Below are positions 41,548-49,856 of a stretch of DNA of 64,000 nt, in pieces. The position numbers were made by a program, and so were the translations under genes. The notes under the pieces are model-generated. The model worked only from the letters and a program-made list of their open reading frames with translations. It was not told the DNA's origin and ran no database searches. The stretch covers positions 5,022,001-5,086,000 of the forward strand of contig NZ_CP043568.1 of assembly GCF_014076415.1 (NCBI RefSeq), given 5' to 3'. Numbering within the stretch: position 1 is the first letter of the stretch; each line of letters starts with the position of its first letter. The DNA comes from Comamonas testosteroni (GTDB lineage Bacteria; Pseudomonadota; Gammaproteobacteria; Burkholderiales; Burkholderiaceae_C).

Positions 41548-41777
41548 GTTTGAACCTCGAGCGCGCTTGCAGTCGTGAAGTCTCATTATTCGTTACTTTG
41601 CGTCACTTGCGTATACCAAAAACATCAGCATCTCAGCTTGTCCACGCCGAGCTACCCTCGGCTGTGCAGGCACCAAGCCATAAACCGGAATCAAAGCCCA
41701 AGCATCTCGTGCTCCAAGCTGAAAAAAGGCGCAACGTCCCGGCCTCTGACTGGGAAGGTGCGCCACTGGACTCTCTG

Positions 41778-42332
41778 TCAGACCGCTTTCCAGAAAATAT
41801 AGTCGGCCTGATACTGCACGATCTGCTTGCTGCCCAGATTCGCAGCTCCGCAGGCCATGCTCGGCGCGACGCCCCCCTTGGTTGCCACACGCTGGATATA
41901 GGTCACCCCCTGCATGGCTCCCATTCCGGTGGCAGGATTGGCCTTGACCAGCTGCAGCGGGATATTACCCGCTCCGGCAGGAGCCACGGCAAGCTGCGTG
42001 GCAGTGACCTTGGAGCCGTCGTTGTTCTCCCAAGTCGCTGGCGGACCCCAGTATTTGCCGATGACCGTACCGCTTCGCGTTTGCAGCTTGGCATCAGGGC
42101 CTACAAACACCCATTCGTGCTCGGCTGCCATGTCCTTCTTGGCCCGACACTCATAGGTGATCTGGCCAACACCCACGGTCTCCATGGCCACTTTGTGTCC
42201 TGCGGGCACTTGCACGGTAGCCGGAAGTTCGGCTTGTGAATACATGGAGTGAGAGCCCATGGATGAGCAAGCGCTCAGGCCAAGCGCGGATAGGCACAGA
42301 GCGGTCAGCGAAAGTGTGTGTCGATGCATCAT
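41778..42332 (-). CDS. DUF3455 lipoprotein
   Basis: 184 residues: lipoprotein signal ALCLSALGLSACSS, then a domain with VQVPAGHKVAMETVGVGQIT, EWVFVGPDAKL, GKYWGPPATWE and CGAANLGSKQIVQYQADYIF. Function of DUF3455 is unknown; it occurs in exported proteins of soil bacteria. Start ATG 42332 has GAGGGAA 8 nt upstream. It is downstream of the ferritin-like gene on the same strand, separated only by a terminator-like hairpin that lies immediately before its ribosome-binding site. Confidence 0.82.
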   Translation of the reverse strand: MMHRHTLSLTALCLSALGLSACSSMGSHSMYSQAELPATVQVPAGHKVAMETVGVGQITYECRAKKDMAAEHEWVFVGPDAKLQTRSGTVIGKYWGPPATWENNDGSKVTATQLAVAPAGAGNIPLQLVKANPATGMGAMQGVTYIQRVATKGGVAPSMACGAANLGSKQIVQYQADYIFWKAV

Positions 42333-42363
42333 GAGTATTCCCTCAAACAAGATGAAAAAATGC

Positions 42364-42383
42364 ACCGGGCGAGACTGCCCGGT
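42364..42383 (-). terminator. Terminator or attenuator between ferritin-like and DUF3455 genes
   Basis: 7-bp stem ACCGGGC/GCCCGGT with a 6-nt loop; on the minus strand it is followed by GC A and six T residues. The T-run ends close to the DUF3455 ribosome-binding site, so it may limit how much transcript enters that gene. Confidence 0.75.
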
Positions 42384-42401
42384 ACTCGGGGCTTCGCCAG
42401 G

Positions 42402-42995
42402 TCAGCCGCCAAATGACAAGGCATTGCTTGGCAAGGGGCGGCCGAGAGCCGAGATCAGGGCCGTGTAGTGCATGGTTTCATCGGCGGCCAGGCGTCCTGC
42501 GACCTTGGCCAGGTCACGGTTTTCGAAAGCTGGAATGACGCCCAGGTAGGCATTGGTCGCGCCAAGCTCCAGTCTTGCGGCCAGATTGAGCACATCGGCC
42601 TGACTCTTGAGGGTTGCGGCCTTGAGAGAGTCGGCATAGGTCTGCATCGAGGCCTCGGCCACCGGCTTTCCGCCCATCTTCTGGATGGTGGCAATCAGAG
42701 CGTCACGGTGGGCCTTGTGATGGCTTTGGAACAGCAGGGCCACATCCAGCACGGGCTTTTGCAGCAGGCCGCTACCAGCACCCAACTGGTAGGCGTTGAT
42801 GGCCTCATGCTCCAGCCCCAGGGCCACATTGAGGATGGATACATCCTTGGCTGGATCATTGCCCATGCCTTGGGCCAGAGCCTCGTTGCCTGCCAACATG
42901 GCGACCGCCACGGCCGACAAAGTGCCGGTGGTGCCAAGAAATCCGCGACGCGAGGCCATGGGCGAGGCATGGCCTTCAAACAGATGGATGCTCAT
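42402..42995 (-). CDS. Tat-exported ferritin-like protein
   Basis: 197 residues. Twin-arginine signal ASRRGFLGTTGTLSAVAVAM is followed after the cleavage site (ALA-QG) by a four-helix ferritin-like domain with carboxylate and histidine residues (GLEHEAINAYQLGA, FQSHHKAHRDALI, ARLELGATNAYLG, ADETMHYTALI) that could bind a di-iron centre. Belongs to the PF13668-type ferritin-like family, found with ECF sigma factors. Probably a periplasmic oxidant- or metal-handling protein. Its upstream region carries a promoter motif identical in form to that of the divergent sigma gene. Confidence 0.85.
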   Translation of the reverse strand: MSIHLFEGHASPMASRRGFLGTTGTLSAVAVAMLAGNEALAQGMGNDPAKDVSILNVALGLEHEAINAYQLGAGSGLLQKPVLDVALLFQSHHKAHRDALIATIQKMGGKPVAEASMQTYADSLKAATLKSQADVLNLAARLELGATNAYLGVIPAFENRDLAKVAGRLAADETMHYTALISALGRPLPSNALSFGG

Positions 42996-43050
42996 GATGA
43001 CTCCTAATTGGATGTGGGGATCTGTCGGCCTTTGCGATGTCCGACACTTG

Positions 43051-43079
43051 GAATACGCATCCTTTGGCGCGGTGGATTC
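43051..43079 (-). promoter_or_regulatory. Putative ECF promoter of the ferritin-like gene
   Basis: Minus strand: GAATCCA (43079-43073), 15-nt spacer, CGTATTC (43057-43051). Leader to the ATG is about 50 nt. The -35/-10 pair matches the motif before the sigma gene. Confidence 0.65.
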
Positions 43080-43119
43080 AAGTTTCTGAAAACTTTTTCA
43101 GCCATTTCGCGCGTTGTCC

Positions 43120-43148
43120 AAATCCAGTGGCTGGGTTGCTGCGTATAG
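43120..43148 (+). promoter_or_regulatory. Putative autoregulated ECF promoter of the sigma gene
   Basis: AAATCCA (43120-43126), 15-nt spacer, CGTATAG (43142-43148). Leader of about 75 nt to the sigma ATG. Same bases and same spacing as the promoter on the opposite strand at 43051-43079, as expected for autoregulation by the encoded ECF factor. Confidence 0.65.
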
Positions 43149-43230
43149 GTGATTACCAGGAACTGCAACATGCCTTGGCAGTTATCCAACAGCACAACAT
43201 GAAGCAGGTCCTACTGATCAAAATGGCTGC

Positions 43231-43806
43231 ATGAGCGCCCAAACACCGGACAACCAACTGATGGACTTGATCGACCGCGTAGCAACCCGGGACGAGGTTG
43301 CTCTGAAGCTGCTGTACGACCAGACCGCCTCGCGGCTGTATGGCCTGGCTCTGCGCATACTTGGTAACAAGGAGTGGGCAGAGGATGTGCTGCAGGAGAG
43401 CTTTCTGGGAATCTGGCGCAGTGCGCAGACCTACCGGGAGTCGCTCAGCCCGCCCCTGGCCTGGATGGGCATGCTGGTGCGCAGCCGGGCCCTGGACTTT
43501 TTGCGCCGGCGCAGAGCCGAGCGCCTGCATCTCAATGTATCGATTGAGGACTTTGAGGAGTTGCCCCAGGACAAGGACACGCAAGGGCCAATGCAACTGG
43601 TGGAAGCAAGTGAACAAGCCGTGGTCTTGCACCAGTGTCTAGAAAAGCTGGAGCAGCCACAGCGCCAGGTGGTGAGCCTGGCCTATCTGAATGATTTAAG
43701 TCATAGCGAACTGGCCAGCAGCCTGAAGCTGCCGCTGGGTACCGTCAAGACATGGATGCGCCGCAGCTTGGAGCAGCTGCGCAAATGCATGGCACGCCAT
43801 GTTTGA
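43231..43806 (+). CDS. ECF (SigK-like) RNA polymerase sigma factor
   Basis: 191 residues with sigma region 2 (LYDQTASRLYGLALRILGNK, then AEDVLQESFLGIWRSAQTY) and region 4 (LEQPQRQVVSLAYLNDLSHS, then LPLGTVKTWMRRSLEQLR). Followed 18 nt later by its RskA-type anti-sigma, a pairing typical of SigK-like ECF factors. Probably directs the divergent ferritin-like/DUF3455 genes and itself (shared promoter motif), and perhaps the MXKDX/molybdoenzyme operon nearby. Confidence 0.9.
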   Translation: MSAQTPDNQLMDLIDRVATRDEVALKLLYDQTASRLYGLALRILGNKEWAEDVLQESFLGIWRSAQTYRESLSPPLAWMGMLVRSRALDFLRRRRAERLHLNVSIEDFEELPQDKDTQGPMQLVEASEQAVVLHQCLEKLEQPQRQVVSLAYLNDLSHSELASSLKLPLGTVKTWMRRSLEQLRKCMARHV

Positions 43807-43824
43807 GCGCCAGGAGTCGACATC

Positions 43825-44625
43825 ATGAATCTGACCCAGAACCCTGAATTACTGGACCGACTGGCTGCCTCCTATTCACTGGGAACTTTGCACGGAGGGG
43901 CACGCCGACGCTTTGAGCAGCTGGCACGCGAATATCCGCAGGTGCGCGCGGCTGCCTTGCTGTGGCAAGGCCGCTGGTCGGCCTTCTCCGAGGTTCAGAC
44001 TCCGGTACAGCCCGATGCGGTGGTCTGGACACGCATTGCCAACCTGCTGCAGGCCGAAACAGCTAGAGCCAAGTTGGCCCGACAGCGTGAAGCCGCATCG
44101 AAGTCGGCATGGCCGACACTCGCGTGGTGGCGTGGACTGGCACTGGCAGGCGGTTTGGCCACGGTGGCGGCTATCTCGGTGGGGCTTTGGTCGCATCAAG
44201 GGCTCAGGGATGCATTGCACCAGAAATTGTCTGCGTTACAGACTCGGCTCCAGCTGGCGCAGGCTGAATTGCAGGCGGCGCCCCAAATTCAATATGTGGC
44301 GGTGCTCGCCGATGGCAAGGCTGATGCGTCCATGCTGGTGACCTTCGATCCCCGGCACCAGCAACTGGTATTGCAACGCGTGAGCGGCTTCAAGGAGGCT
44401 GATAACAAGTCTCTTCAATTGTGGGCCTTGCCTCAGCAGGGCGCGCCACGTTCCCTGGGGGTCATGGGTGATGGAAAGCTTGAGCAACTCACTGCGCAGG
44501 AGACAGACGTGAAAGCAATCCCGGCCCTGGCCATCAGCCTGGAGCCCAAAGGCGGCGTCCCCAGCTCAACGGGGCCGACTGGTCCGGTGCTGTTCAAGGG
44601 CGCGCTCATTCGCCGAGATCTCTGA
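43825..44625 (+). CDS. RskA-type anti-sigma factor
   Basis: 266 residues. N-terminal cytoplasmic anti-sigma helices (LDRLAASYSLGTLHGGARRRF), a single membrane helix near 110-130 (GLALAGGLATVAAISVGLWS), a short coiled coil and a periplasmic C-terminal RskA domain (NKSLQLWALPQQGAPRSLGV, then ALAISLEPKGGVPSSTGPTG). Binds the sigma factor at the membrane until a periplasmic signal triggers its release. Note that it is not the multi-helix DUF1109 type. Confidence 0.88.
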   Translation: MNLTQNPELLDRLAASYSLGTLHGGARRRFEQLAREYPQVRAAALLWQGRWSAFSEVQTPVQPDAVVWTRIANLLQAETARAKLARQREAASKSAWPTLAWWRGLALAGGLATVAAISVGLWSHQGLRDALHQKLSALQTRLQLAQAELQAAPQIQYVAVLADGKADASMLVTFDPRHQQLVLQRVSGFKEADNKSLQLWALPQQGAPRSLGVMGDGKLEQLTAQETDVKAIPALAISLEPKGGVPSSTGPTGPVLFKGALIRRDL

Positions 44626-45116
44626 TTCCCGTCTCCATTGACACTGCAGCGAACTGTGTCCGAGCTGTCCAGAACCATTGAGGCTCCACGGCTGCCATAA
44701 GTAACGAGGCCTGTGACTGCTTTCCGCTGCAAACACGGTGTATCAGTCTGCTCCCCGAATGAGCGCTTCTAAATGCTTGGCAAATGCGCGGCCATCCTTC
44801 AGGCCTCTCGGAGGCGCAACATACGCTGCAACATCGCTCTGTATGACCACAGTCAGGACATGCTGACGCGGCCGCCCTGTATGGATGTAGCGACTACAGC
44901 CCTGATCTTCAGGCCAGCATCAACTCATCTTCCGGCAGCCTCGTGACAACTCAGCACGGCCAGGGTGGCCCGAGCGTTGAGATTGCAGGCACCAAATGCG
45001 CTTGATACTGCGTCAGCTTCGGACGCAGTACCTGCAGAACAATCTACAAAAATCGAGCATGGCTGAGCGTCGGGAGCGACAAGGCGTCGAGACGGCTATT
45101 GCCGCTCCCCTGCTTG
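44626..45116. other. Gene-poor stretch after the anti-sigma gene
   Basis: No convincing gene. On the minus strand a 59-codon frame without stops (44743-44919) reads in a protein-like manner (RPRQHVLTVVIQSDVAAYVA) but has no ATG; it may be a gene remnant. The end nearest 45117 lies downstream of the MXKDX gene, where no strong terminator was found. Confidence 0.4.
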
Positions 45117-45401
45117 CTATTTGCTCATGGTGCCCCTTGACATTCCTTCCTTACCCATGGCGTCCTTGCTCATCTTGTCCTTGCCCATGTGGTCAATAGA
45201 GGATTTTCCGTCCTTGGTCATTGCACCCTTGCTCATGCTCATGGAATCCTTGTGCTTGGAGTCCTTGTCCATGGAAGGCTTGTCCATGCCCATTTGATCT
45301 CTTCCCATTGACTCCTTGGTCATCGCATCGGCTGCAAAGGCCGAAGTGACGCTCAATGCCAGACACATGGAAAGCGCGGTGGTGATGAATGCGTGTTTCA
45401 T
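45117..45401 (-). CDS. Secreted methionine-rich MXKDX-repeat protein (MrpX-like)
   Basis: 94 residues. A cleavable signal (ending AFA) is followed by a 71-residue mature part with 13 Met and 13 Lys, plus many Asp and Ser, arranged in loose MxKDx pentapeptides (for example MSKDAMGKEGM, KDKMSKD). No Cys or Trp in the mature part. Matches the pentapeptide MXKDX repeat family. In Azospira a similar Met-rich periplasmic peptide, MrpX, scavenges hypochlorite by methionine oxidation and is regenerated by a YedY-type reductase; the gene next door here is of that type, so the same role is inferred. Confidence 0.88.
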   Translation of the reverse strand: MKHAFITTALSMCLALSVTSAFAADAMTKESMGRDQMGMDKPSMDKDSKHKDSMSMSKGAMTKDGKSSIDHMGKDKMSKDAMGKEGMSRGTMSK

Positions 45402-45484
45402 GATGGTACTTTCTTGGCTCAGGTGGAAAAAGACGGCATGTGCCGCAGTGGGAACAGGAGAAATCGGATTGAAGAGGTGTTTCC

Positions 45485-46267
45485 TCAGCTACCGCCGAAC
45501 CAGTTGTAGCCCTGGTCTTCCCAGTAGCCGCGGTTGAAGGAGTTGCTCACGAAGATGGCCCGTATGTGCTTGGGATTCTTGTAGCCCAGCTTGGTAGGCA
45601 TGCGAAGCTTCATCGGGAAGCCGTATCTGGATGGCAGAGGCTGTCCATCCCAGTCGAGTGCAAGCAGCGTCTGAGGATGCAGGGCGGCCGCCATGTCGAT
45701 GCTGGTGTAGTAGTCATCGACACATTGAAAGCCTACATAGCGGGCACTGAGGTCAGCTCCCACTGCTCGTAGAAAGTCACCAAAGCGTGGACCACCCCAT
45801 TTGCCGATGGCGCTCCAGCCTTCCACACAGATGTGGCGCGTGACCTGCGTGTACTGCGGCAGCGCGCGCAACTCGTGGAGCGTCCAACTGCGCCTGTCGG
45901 CCACAAGACCTGTGACCTCCAAAAGAAAACTGGCTCCATCCACTTCCGGGACCCTGCTTTCAGCATAAAAAGCATTGAAGGGAAATGGCCTGGTGATCAT
46001 GGATTCGGGGTAAGTGGGTGCAAGACGCGACGAGTCGAACAGCCAGCCCTGTATACGATCATTGAAGCGCGATATCCGGGAGAGCGCCTCTTCTGCTGTG
46101 GCGTTGTCGTCGATGCTGCATCCACTGAGCAGCCCGATACCGCCCAGCGTGAGACCTCGTGCCAGAAACTGCCGACGCGTTGATTGCGACAACTGCCTGC
46201 CGATCAGACGACTAGCCTCGGCAACCACTACTTCACCGTTGTCCCGATGCCAGAGGGATGTGCTCAT
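45485..46267 (-). CDS. YedY/MsrP-like periplasmic molybdopterin oxidoreductase
   Basis: 260 residues of the sulfite-oxidase fold. Tat signal STRRQFLARGLTLGG (Arg 31-32) with an LLSGC lipobox-like sequence (Cys 50). The molybdenum ligand is Cys 147 in RHICVEGWSAIGKWGG; other conserved parts are DDYYTSIDM and SRYGFPMKLRMPTKLGYK. MsrP reduces methionine sulfoxide in periplasmic proteins using electrons from a membrane cytochrome b. The cytochrome b gene overlaps it by 4 nt. Expected substrate here is the Met-rich MXKDX protein 83 bp downstream; sulfite-oxidase-like activity on another substrate is possible. Confidence 0.87.
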   Translation of the reverse strand: MSTSLWHRDNGEVVVAEASRLIGRQLSQSTRRQFLARGLTLGGIGLLSGCSIDDNATAEEALSRISRFNDRIQGWLFDSSRLAPTYPESMITRPFPFNAFYAESRVPEVDGASFLLEVTGLVADRRSWTLHELRALPQYTQVTRHICVEGWSAIGKWGGPRFGDFLRAVGADLSARYVGFQCVDDYYTSIDMAAALHPQTLLALDWDGQPLPSRYGFPMKLRMPTKLGYKNPKHIRAIFVSNSFNRGYWEDQGYNWFGGS

Positions 46268-46917
46268 GTCGTGCTCTCCTTGATCGCAGGGCGGAACGTC
46301 GGGCGGCCCAGCACCATGAGGAGCAAAGAGCGCGGAACCAGTAAAACCATGAGAAGATGAACGGCAACAAAGCAGACAATGGCCGCCATGCAGTAAAAAT
46401 GAATGCGTCGTGCCATGTCGTAGCCACCCAGAAGCTCGCGCAGCAGCGGAAACTGCACCGACTTCCAGACCACCAAGCCACTGAGCACCAGCAATATCAA
46501 ATCTGCAACGGCAAACAGGTAGGCAACGCGCTGCAGCTGGTTGTAGTGACTCAAGTCCGAATGCGACAAACGTGCCGTCAGTGCGAGCCAGGTGTCACGC
46601 AATATGCCGCGCACAGTGACGGCAAGCATGCGGCGCGCAAACCTGCCCGTGAACAGATTGAGCAGCAGATAGGCAAGTCCATTGAGCACAAACAGCCACA
46701 TACCCGCGAAATGCCATTGCAGTGCGCCGCCCAGCCAGCCGCCCAGAGTGAGGCCGACAGGAAAGAAGAAGTCAAAAATGGGCGAGGCGTTGTAGATTCG
46801 CCAGCCGCTCATCACCATGACCAGCACAGCTAGTGCATTGATCCAGTGGGTCATGCGCAGCCACAGCGGCTGAACTGTGGCGCTGCGCTTCGACGGTTGA
46901 TGTGCAGGAGAAGGCAT
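46264..46917 (-). CDS. Cytochrome b561-type membrane subunit (YedZ1-like)
   Basis: 217 residues, four to five membrane helices with paired His ligands (LWLRMTHWINALAVLVMVMS, GALQWHFAGMWLFVLNGLAY, and RRIHFYCMAAIVCFVAVHLL). A quinol-oxidising cytochrome b of the PF01292/thiosulfate-reductase type, likely passing electrons to the molybdoenzyme encoded 4 nt into its end. Start at ATG 46917 (MPSPAHQPSKR); the maximal frame adds 57 unlikely residues. It differs from MsrQ, which has six helices. Confidence 0.85.
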   Translation of the reverse strand: MPSPAHQPSKRSATVQPLWLRMTHWINALAVLVMVMSGWRIYNASPIFDFFFPVGLTLGGWLGGALQWHFAGMWLFVLNGLAYLLLNLFTGRFARRMLAVTVRGILRDTWLALTARLSHSDLSHYNQLQRVAYLFAVADLILLVLSGLVVWKSVQFPLLRELLGGYDMARRIHFYCMAAIVCFVAVHLLMVLLVPRSLLLMVLGRPTFRPAIKESTT

Positions 46918-47543
46918 GAGCGCATTGTTTTGCGCACCTGATCTCGAAGTCCTCACCGAAAGTTCAAAAAATCGTGATAGTTCGGCAAGCGCCGTTGATG
47001 AACCGAATCGAGCTGCTTCCACTAAGTGCCCAGCAATTGCCTTTGTTGTCAGTAGAACTCTGCAAACTTGCCGAATGCATGCCTCCATGCTTCAGGGCAA
47101 TTGCAGTACCGCCAGGACCAAAGGCTTCCAGCCTATTTCTCGAGGGCTCACACTCCCCCTTCCTCTTGAACGACAGGGCTGTCGAGGATTCGCAGTTGAG
47201 CAAGGTTGCAGAACCCATGCCTGCGACGACTGACTGGCCGGTCACTCTGCTTTTCAGCAACTGGGCTCGGCTAGATGTCGGCATCAGACACCCCTGGTTG
47301 CGAGAGCGCTTCAAGCTTGACCAGGTTAAGGCGGATTGCTCGGGTTGCCCGATCAATGGTGATCGACTGCATCAGGCCAGAAGCAACCGGTTCACGGCTC
47401 TCACTCAAAGCTGGGCGCAGTCAAGGCGACCGCAGCTCCGCTCTCGACAAGCGCGAATGCTCATCTCCCGGCCTCCCTGGCTTTTCAGCAGGAGTTTTCG
47501 ACATGCGACGACCGAGAACATGCGGGTCTTTATAGAATCGGGC
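46918..47543. other. Intergenic region between cytochrome b and HD-protein genes
   Basis: About 620 bp between divergent genes. Open frames exist on both strands but none reads like a known family, so I report no gene. It must hold the promoters of the cytochrome b-molybdoenzyme operon and the HD gene. The AATCCA-N15-CGTAT motif of the sigma gene was not found near the cytochrome b start. Confidence 0.45.
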
Positions 47544-48180: not shown

Positions 48181-49140
48181 GAGGGCGTTGTTGCACAAAC
48201 ACAGAGCCTGCTCTCTGTAGGCTCGGTGCATGAGCCAGCACACACCCAAGAAACGTTATCGCACTACCGACTGGAAGCAGTACAACTCCTCCCTGAAGGC
48301 TCGTGGCTCCCTGACGATTTGGTTGATCAGAAGATGTCCTGTTTTGCCGCAGCAAGCGGCAAACGCGGGCGTAGCCCGAAGTTCTCCGATGCAGCGATCC
48401 AGTTCTGTTTGACACTCAAAAACCTATTTGGCTTGGCCCTTCGACAAGCCACTGGACTTGTCCAGTCAGTACTCGATCTATCCGGCCTCGTTTGGCCGGT
48501 GCCAGACTTCAGTACGCTGTGCAGGCGGCAGTTGAGTCTGGATGTTCAAGTCCCGTACAGGCGCAGTCAAGCAGGGCTGCAATTGCTCGTGGACTCCACA
48601 GGCATCAAGTTTTTGGGCGAAGGCGAATAGAAATGCAAAAACACGGCCCTGAGCGCCGTCGTCAATGGTGCAAACTGCACATCGGCATTGATGCACAGTC
48701 ACTGCAAATACGGGCGATTTGCGTCACCAGCAACGAGGTAGTCGATGCGGCCGTTGTAGCGGATCTTCTGGTCTTAGCTCCTCACCGCGAGAGCATCCGG
48801 AGTCTTGCTGGCGATGGTGCGTATGACACTCAGACTGCCCATGAAGTAGCCATTCAAAGAGGTGCCATTCCCGTCATCCCTCCGAGAAAAAATGCGCGTG
48901 TACGCAAAGACGATGCCTTTGTGTACCGCATGCCGGCGTTTGGGCCGAAAGATATGGAAAGTGTGGAGCGATTACCACCGGAAAAGCTTGGTGGAGACCA
49001 AAATGAACTGCATCAGACGACTGGGCGAGCGGGTCATGTCCAGAGCCCTTGAACGACAAGCCAATGAACTGCACATCCGCGCAGCCATCCTCAATCGGTT
49101 CACTGAACTAGGGCGTCCGCAGACAGTGGCCGTGGCATAG
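48181..49140 (+). mobile_element. Decayed IS5-family insertion element
   Basis: Left end GAGGGCGTTGTTGCACAAA resembles IS5-family terminal repeats. The transposase frame opens at 48230 (MSQHTPKKRYRTTDWKQYNS) but shifts near 48323 (one base lost), has an amber at 48628-48630 (TGG to TAG) with another one-base loss in the following A-run, and shifts again with a small deletion near 48920-48935. Conserved DDE pieces remain in pieces: FSDAAIQFCLTLKNLFGLAL, LVDSTGIKFLGEGE, ICVTSNEVVDAAVVADLL, and LGRKIWKVWSDYHRKSLVET. No matching right-end repeat was found, so it is probably truncated. Non-functional. Confidence 0.85.
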
Positions 49141-49279
49141 CTGCGTCAGGGGTCAGGGGGTAACTCAACCTCGGGCGGATTTGAATACGAAGGACTTCCC
49201 GCCATCTTGGCCTGCTGGATACGCAGTGCCACGATGGATCGGCAAGCCAATTTCTTCGTCATTCATCAGGAGTCGTGGC

Positions 49280-49856
49280 ATGCAAACCATTGTCCGTGTC
49301 GGGGTAGATCTCGCAAAGAATGTGCTGCAGGTCCATGCAGTCGATGCTCAAGGGCGGATGGTCACTAACCGGGCCATCCAGCGCAGCGAGTTCTTGGCAT
49401 GGTGTGCGCCATTACCTGCAGCGTGTCTGGTGGCCATGGAAGCTTGTGGTGGTGCGTACCACTGGTGTCGGCAGTTGCTGTGCATGGGCTTGGATGCACG
49501 CATGATGGCAGCGGCACGGGTTGCACCCTATCGCATGCAGGGCAAGAGCGGCAAAAACGATGCCAATGATGCCGCTGCCATTTGCGAGGCAGCCAGCCGT
49601 CCTCAGATGCGCTTTGTACCCGTGAAGACTCCAGAGCAGCCGGGCATCCTGTGTGTGCATCGGCTGCGCGAAGGGTTCAAAGAGGAGCGCACAGCATGCA
49701 TTAACCGCATTCGAGGCTTGCTCGCCAAGTTTGGCGTTGTGCTGCCGCAAAGCCCCCAGAGCCTTGCGCCCCCATTTGCACGATATCTTGGAAGATGCGA
49801 GCAATGACATCGCAAAGCAGTCTCCTGGCACACGACTGCATTGTGTCGATGCGTAA
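49280..49856 (+). pseudogene. Truncated IS110-family transposase
   Basis: Begins MQTIVRVGVDLAKNVLQVHA with the DEDD-type active-site pieces (VDLAKN, MEACGG, KNDANDAAAICEA) and the PVKTPEQPG segment. Around 49740 the frame shifts: the continuing family sequence (ALRPHLHDILEDASND) is in another frame and stops at 49856. The C-terminal transposase_20 domain (full length about 340 residues) is missing. A dead copy or remnant, directly after the IS5 remnant; the pair may record successive insertions. Confidence 0.84.

Follow-up and report, generated by a model that had tools for sequence, protein, structure and literature searches.

Two adjacent candidate envelope-stress units in Comamonas testosteroni: a SigK/RskA-style cassette and a methionine-sulfoxide repair operon

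The 64,000-nucleotide stretch of Comamonas testosteroni DNA analysed here (hereafter the window; NCBI RefSeq assembly GCF_014076415.1, contig NZ_CP043568.1, positions 5,022,001 to 5,086,000) carries seven genes between its positions 41778 and 46917 that the original prediction, an earlier reading of the same DNA, had joined into one oxidative-stress module. Profile scores and sequence reading confirmed all seven as placed and named. Their union into a single module was not borne out, because the two groups of genes carry different upstream elements and the genome holds three copies of the four-gene half, two of them without the other three genes. We consider instead, with a probability of roughly 0.77, that the genes form two independent envelope-stress units that are neighbours by chance: unit A, a cassette governed by a SigK-like sigma factor and an RskA-type anti-sigma factor, and unit B, a methionine-repair operon under another regulator.

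Unit A comprises two divergent operons with a 235-bp gap between them. On the plus strand, a SigK-like extracytoplasmic-function (ECF) sigma factor with Cys136 and Cys186 (43231–43806) is followed by an RskA-type membrane anti-sigma factor that lacks any Cys (43825–44625; RskA_C, PF10099, 89.6 bits, cut-off 29.4). On the minus strand, a ferritin-like four-helix protein (Ferritin_2/DUF4439; 42402–42995; PF13668, score 87.4, cut-off 24.7), with a twin-arginine signal, SRRGFLG, read by eye at its N terminus, precedes a DUF3455 lipoprotein (41778–42329; PF11937, 114.1 bits, cut-off 25), the second gene of that operon, in which a lipobox, LSAC, was read directly. The gap holds two divergent promoter-like sites of the form RAATCC-N16-CGTAT. 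GAATCC-N16-CGTAT, on the minus strand (43053–43079), faces the ferritin–DUF3455 operon 58 bp from its start codon, and AAATCC-N16-CGTAT, on the plus strand (43120–43146), faces the sigma–rskA operon 85 bp from its start codon, which predicts autoregulation. No other zero-mismatch match occurs in the window.

The cassette (41756–44628 by blastn) is present three times in the genome. Whole-genome searches for RskA_C, DUF3455 and Ferritin_2 each returned the same three places, with one additional Ferritin_2 gene at 1.908 Mb. Over 2874 columns, window positions 41756–44628 are 99.27% identical in DNA to copy 2 (~2.137 Mb, L011), and over 2847 columns, positions 41778–44613 are 89.6% identical to copy 3 (~2.528 Mb, L012); the alignments were made with blastn, and identity drops off where DUF3455 and rskA end on their outer sides. 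The residues identical to copies 2 and 3, respectively, number 183 and 173 of 183 for DUF3455, 197 and 193 of 197 for the ferritin-like protein, 191 and 177 of 191 for the sigma factor, and 262 and 247 of 266 for RskA. The ferritin-like protein of the window is 99% identical to its counterpart in C. testosteroni ATCC 11996. In C. testosteroni JL40 (L164), the cassette occupies the window's own site, with flanks that match the window at 88–95% DNA identity and identical outer neighbours, namely a PAS-GGDEF gene and, at the opposite end, a gene interpreted as encoding a YchF-type GTPase. No relatives of the three genes of unit B were found within 16–17 kb around copies 2 and 3, and this trio is missing at the corresponding site in JL40; its placement beside the cassette therefore appears to be recent or accidental.

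Six exact matches to RAATCC-N16-CGTAT were found genome-wide, five of them inside the three cassettes, and the reversed pattern gave none; the sixth (L137) lies amid overlapping open reading frames (ORFs), with accB-like and redoxin-like ones next to it, and on reading was put down to chance. A relaxed pattern matched 17 places, compared with six for the reversed control; three of these matches are the sites that face ferritin in the cassettes, and 11 fall inside ORFs of more than 300 residues. One match inside such an ORF (L143) also has a dehydrogenase-like ORF 115 bp downstream of it, and the matches at L145–L147 lie outside ORFs of this size with no convincing gene behind them; none of these was accepted, and the relaxed scan of the genome added no target beyond the cassette sites. 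In the 10-kb stretch of the fourth Ferritin_2 gene (1.908 Mb, L013), no site with a 16- or 17-base spacer was found, and a single match to the promoter pattern, at position 737 of that stretch, has an 18-base spacer.

Unit B lies entirely on the minus strand. It encodes an MXKDX Met-rich secreted protein (45117–45401; TIGR02953, 43.9 bits, cut-off 41) with 15 Met among 94 residues; a YedY/MsrP-like molybdoenzyme (45485–46267; Oxidored_molyb, PF00174) with a Cys at 147 and, by eye, a twin-arginine signal and a possible lipobox; and a b561-type cytochrome b (46264–46917; Ni_hydr_CYTB, PF01292, 71.5 bits, cut-off 30.1), the likely membrane partner. No site of the RAATCC-N16-CGTAT type was found upstream of the trio (45117–46917). 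It is preceded by an inverted-repeat box, TCAC-N17-GTGA (46953–46977, minus strand), a predicted response-regulator site that matched once in the window and in 0 of 100 shuffles. With up to three mismatches allowed, the genome holds two such sites, the one in the window with none and another at C1:3458516–3458540 with two; the control gave 0. The second box is flanked on one side by a regulator/kinase pair, the regulator gene of which spans C1:3457723–3458415, and on the other by divergently oriented genes that encode MsrB (SelR), a thiol-redox protein and MsrA (PMSR) (L158 6243–11682; C1:3456242–3461681), and the MsrB and MsrA proteins have, by reading, export-type N termini. The L158 locus is likely to be a methionine-sulfoxide regulon, and the best reading of the trio is that it belongs to a two-component regulon for periplasmic methionine-sulfoxide repair.

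Among 15 stretches fetched from 22 YedY-like places outside this genome, all 15 encode cytochrome b and ten encode an MXKDX protein (at least 25 bits); RskA, DUF3455 and ferritin do not reach 60 bits in any of them. Nor did any of the 15 show a promoter-like site of unit A near the trio. An orthologous response regulator and kinase are encoded divergently from the trio in four of them (L115, L116, L118 and L119), where a TCACG..TTGAA..GTGA form of the box lies upstream of cytochrome b, as in the window. The regulator beside the second box of our genome is 75% identical to that of L115 and is its closest match. In two further loci (L117 and L120), an ECF sigma factor with NrsF is divergent from the trio. 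A looser form of the box also matches L122 at 6152, away from the trio.

For unit A, two sets of loci from relatives were compared, which have one genome or more in common (L044 and L209). The DUF3455 set consists of 60 stretches taken from 78 matches outside this genome, within the same family, in which 68 of 150 genomes carry DUF3455; for the count of sites, copies 2 and 3 of this genome were included, giving 62 loci and 65 DUF3455 ORFs. RskA is encoded in 33 of the 60, RskA with a sigma factor in 32, and ferritin in four (at least 80 bits). In this set, G[AC]ATCC-N16-CGTA lies upstream of 22 of 65 DUF3455 and 6 of 35 sigma genes, with at most two matches at other spacers and none for the reversed pattern; over the full 1.05 Mb of these loci, it matched 44 times, compared with three for the reversed pattern. 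The pattern was read by eye in the window, seen in relatives at spacers of 15–17 and then widened to G[AC]ATCC or [GA][AC]ATCC before counting, so it was partly shaped on this first set. The ferritin set, fetched afterwards, comprises 80 named loci (L161–L240), mostly from Burkholderiales, of which 24 are shortened by contig ends and 56 extend the full 7 kb to either side. A sigma factor is encoded in 61 of the 80, RskA in 54 and DUF3455 in 23 (at least 40 bits).

In the ferritin set, [GA][AC]ATCC-Nk-CGTA precedes 69 of 83 ferritin genes (69 of 80 by locus), with k=16 in 34 and k=17 in 35; no other k from 8 to 25 was represented and the reversed pattern gave none. With k=16, the site also precedes 33 of 70 sigma genes. 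Where DUF3455 is the second gene of the operon, it has no site of its own (0 of 22), and 14 of the 19 ferritin genes whose locus lacks a sigma factor at 100 bits or more are still preceded by one. Ferritin promoters fall into two spacer classes, 16 and 17, and sites before sigma and DUF3034 genes have a 16-base spacer only. DUF3034 genes are preceded by the site in 30 of 31 cases and DUF4331 genes in two of five; DUF3034 genes behind a site occur, for example, at L048 6788, L083 7927, L097 11358 and L170 2057, and, by eye, in three DUF3455 loci. In single or a few loci, the gene behind the site encodes a cytochrome c, a truncated globin, a copper-binding protein (plastocyanin/azurin) or a DUF4198 protein, one protein of each having been tested and found above the Pfam cut-off; two more copper-binding-like proteins scored below it. 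A DUF692 gene, for an enzyme of ribosomally synthesized and post-translationally modified peptides, follows a site in one DUF3455 locus (L045), and at L080 14888 and 14981 a divergent promoter-like pair has no recognised gene behind either site. Of the 132 site matches in the ferritin set, 77 are not upstream of ferritin, sigma or DUF3455; the 30 DUF3034 genes explain part of these, and the others lie in coding sequence or before unassigned ORFs.

The recurrence of RskA beside ferritin (54 of 80 loci) and DUF3455 (33 of 60), together with the shared promoter-like site, upholds that part of the original prediction which gave the sigma/anti-sigma pair two new exported partners. A conserved neighbourhood of all seven families, whose absence the original prediction had itself named as refuting, was not found, which goes part of the way towards refuting it. 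On balance, we favour a SigK/RskA-type regulon with [GA][AC]ATCC-N16/17-CGTA promoters that would be widespread among Burkholderiales, the Comamonadaceae included, and would extend to some alphaproteobacteria. It would command exported metal/redox proteins, with the HxxH ferritin-like, DUF3455 and DUF3034 proteins as its core and, in single or a few genomes, DUF4331, cupredoxin-like, cytochrome c, truncated globin and DUF692 proteins, and it would be contracted here to three self-contained four-gene cassettes.

Unit A is, as far as its sequence goes, a SigK/RskA-style cassette with different exported effectors, as indicated by the closest structure in the PDB, Mycobacterium tuberculosis SigK (4nqw, E 2.1e-23), by the alignment of Cys136 and Cys186 with the two Cys of SigK (133/183), and by comparison with the mpt83-sigK-rskA cassette. 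Both Cys are kept in 56 of 66 aligned sigma factors, the window's own included. The mpt83-sigK-rskA cassette is described in Yersinia enterocolitica (PMC7509140), and the same source gives Cys133/183 in 94% of ECF18 and 56% of ECF19 sigma factors. Our unit shares with the M. tuberculosis and Y. enterocolitica systems a SigK-like ECF sigma factor with two Cys, an RskA-type anti-sigma factor and an adjacent gene for an exported protein, predicted here to be a target of the same sigma factor. It differs in its targets, a ferritin-like protein and a DUF3455 lipoprotein in place of MPT83/MPT70 proteins, in its three copies per genome and in the wider target set of relatives. The N terminus of the anti-sigma factor resembles, by eye, the AS19-1 consensus quoted in PMC7406223. 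Among the listed papers of the open-licence PubMed Central literature, judged by titles, abstract starts and passages, none linking DUF3455, DUF3034, DUF4331 or the ferritin-like families to SigK/RskA was found, and the papers on DUF3455 are, by title, all on fungi except for one Delftia RNA-seq study. In that study, two DUF3455 genes and a ferritin-like gene of Delftia acidovorans RAY209 rise on day-7 soybean roots (PMC7725335), which would fit co-control of these genes. Another Delftia study reports a 34-kDa ferritin-like protein that goes up or down by strain and chlorhexidine dose (PMC4863599); this protein is probably unrelated to the cassette.

In Azospira, SigF/NrsF is reportedly associated with MrpX and YedY1, and the original prediction held that the same hypochlorite effectors are wired here to the SigK-like sigma factor. 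The trio does resemble the Azospira system in pairing an MXKDX-type Met-rich protein with a YedY-like enzyme. This genome, however, has no match to NrsF (PF06532), for which the control matched in Caulobacter, and the trio bears a response-regulator-type box. The proposed rewiring to SigK/RskA is not supported, because the trio has no site, carries its own box and is missing near the other cassettes and in JL40. The Caulobacter SigF/NrsF regulon (PMC3511200) likewise includes a YedY-like gene under a stress regulator, together with DUF692 and DUF2282 genes, and its DUF692 gene is paralleled by the one behind a unit A-type site in L045; its promoter is GTAACC-N16-CGAA and its anti-sigma factor is NrsF. 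Comparable in its role is E. coli HprSR/CusSR–msrPQ (PMC9302797), where a methionine-sulfoxide reductase of the periplasm, a molybdenum enzyme that works with a membrane partner, is under two-component control. Unit B differs from msrPQ in having a b561-type cytochrome instead of MsrQ, an additional MXKDX protein, another box and predicted joint control with exported MsrB and MsrA.

Several observations weigh against this reading. The sigma factor scores below the cut-off of the NCBIfam SigK model (PRK09646; 134.5 compared with 226), and we call it SigK-like, not SigK, for that reason. Moreover, the M. tuberculosis SigK–RskA complex is stabilised by oxidation, and reduction frees SigK (PMC7509140), so the conserved Cys alone do not predict activation by oxidants. 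With the slightly narrower pattern of the DUF3455 set, the site precedes just 22 of 65 DUF3455 and 6 of 35 sigma genes, and one or two genes matched at spacers 8, 12 or 17. In the ferritin set, the pattern is lacking before 14 of the 83 ferritin genes and before 37 of the 70 sigma genes, and the site precedes ferritin in 5 of 13 loci with alphaproteobacterial titles; the loci without it are L199, L203, L207 and the eight remaining alphaproteobacterial ones. Searches of this genome for DUF3034 and DUF4331 matched nothing, yet the control genomes also gave none; the broader range of targets may thus not hold for this Comamonas. For unit B, the scanned form of the box is absent near cytochrome b in the other 11 YedY loci, and the YedY-like enzyme scores 61.7 bits against the MsrP equivalog model (PRK05363), which has a cut-off of 207. 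The membrane partner of MsrP, MsrQ, is ferric-reductase-like, and the adjacent membrane protein here is a PF01292 cytochrome b561, not of the MsrQ type.

That the SigK-like sigma factor directly drives the MXKDX, YedY-like and cytochrome b genes along with ferritin and DUF3455, as one oxidative-stress module, now seems highly improbable. The genes are adjacent, and the NrsF-linked ECF sigma factors divergent from trios in 2 of 15 YedY loci make ECF control of such trios plausible. Upstream of our trio, however, stands a different and very rare box and no promoter-like site, nor is such a site near the trios of the 15 YedY loci; the trio is missing next to copies 2 and 3, as it is from the JL40 site. 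In the 80 ferritin loci (E 1e-5), neither an MXKDX nor a cytochrome b relative was found, and the YedY-like enzyme had a single relative (48.8 bits, L234); the 60 DUF3455 loci with copies 2 and 3 (E 1e-3) contain no relative of the trio except one weak YedY-like match (20 bits, L048). These results do not support wiring of the trio to this sigma factor. It is also rather unlikely that TCAC-N17-GTGA is bound by some other factor, with the YedY-like operon constitutive or under an unlinked sigma factor. The box is a sequence match whose binding is putative, and the regulator query matched 19 places in the genome; on the other hand, both genomic boxes flank methionine-sulfoxide repair genes, and one of them precedes the closest regulator; in four relatives, the orthologue of this regulator is encoded next to the trio.

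The near-identity of two copies, ending at the cassette edges, and the transposase genes a few kilobases from the window copy would suit a cargo, mobile or gene-converted, that recombination has spread to three places without a stress need behind it. We regard this as quite improbable, given that no transposase gene is found among the cassette ORFs, no terminal repeat was seen by eye in the 120 bases inspected at each junction, the JL40 copy shares both its site and its outer neighbours with the window copy, and the sigma–ferritin pairing recurs across other genera. A further alternative concerns the ferritin-like protein, which forms a four-helix bundle in the predicted model. The motifs of its predicted metal site, HxxH (His93, His96) first and E173xxH176 second, are invariant in 30 sequences, and it probably holds a two-metal site. 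In ferritins and bacterioferritins, the metal site is formed by two ExxH motifs; the first motif here is HxxH, unlike that of these iron stores. RvFeMP-1 (PMC11616004), a ferritin-like metabolite phosphatase of tardigrades, and mini-bacterioferritins share a four-helix bundle with conserved metal ligands, whereas our protein has HxxH in its second helix, a twin-arginine signal and a link to an ECF sigma factor. That it is an exported metal-dependent phosphatase or hydrolase like RvFeMP-1, and not a handler of iron or peroxide, is unlikely, although somewhat less so than the other alternatives.

If the two units work as we propose, membrane-bound RskA would hold the SigK-like sigma factor in unit A until an envelope signal, possibly redox acting via Cys136/Cys186, frees it to transcribe its own operon and the divergent ferritin–DUF3455 operon. 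Of the two products, one is an exported four-helix protein that probably has a site for two metals and the other a lipoprotein predicted to be a small beta-barrel; they would most likely handle iron/peroxide or other metal–oxidant damage outside the cytoplasm. In unit B, cytochrome b would hand quinol electrons to the exported YedY-like molybdoenzyme, which would reduce methionine sulfoxide, and the MXKDX protein would serve either as a sink made of methionines or as a substrate. This operon may be switched on by the OmpR-type regulator/kinase pair encoded 1.6 Mb away, which would also control the exported MsrB/thiol-redox/MsrA operon. The genes present, the three cassette copies and the occurrence of both upstream elements come directly from sequence comparison; how the promoter and box elements are used, what the proteins do and which signals they answer, we infer.

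For unit A, the reading as a SigK/RskA-type regulon is worth keeping: its promoter-like site is sharp, and several of its predicted exported members belong to families without an assigned role. DUF3455, DUF3034 and Ferritin_2/DUF4439 thereby gain a common, sharply defined promoter-like site and a likely regulator, which makes their roles testable by one sigma overexpression. The YedY-like/MXKDX operon, which lies beside SigF/NrsF in some relatives, is suggested here to be under a two-component regulator common to exported MsrB and MsrA, and adjacency by itself would then have given the wrong regulon for the trio.

To the right of the trio, the window holds DDE and IS110 transposase genes or fragments (48226–48630 and 49181–49807), which may account for the trio ending up beside the cassette. 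Copy 3 adjoins a GajA/GajB pair, a Gabija-type anti-phage system (L012 2844–6421; C1 ~2522843–2526420), matched by PADLOC models PDLC00086 (E 3e-229) and PDLC00141 (E 4e-252). Copy 2 adjoins genes for a lipocalin, a flavin adenine dinucleotide amine-oxidase-like protein, a DNA photolyase and a photolyase-related (DPRP) protein (L011 10720–15482), a set that resembles clusters for light or photooxidative stress.

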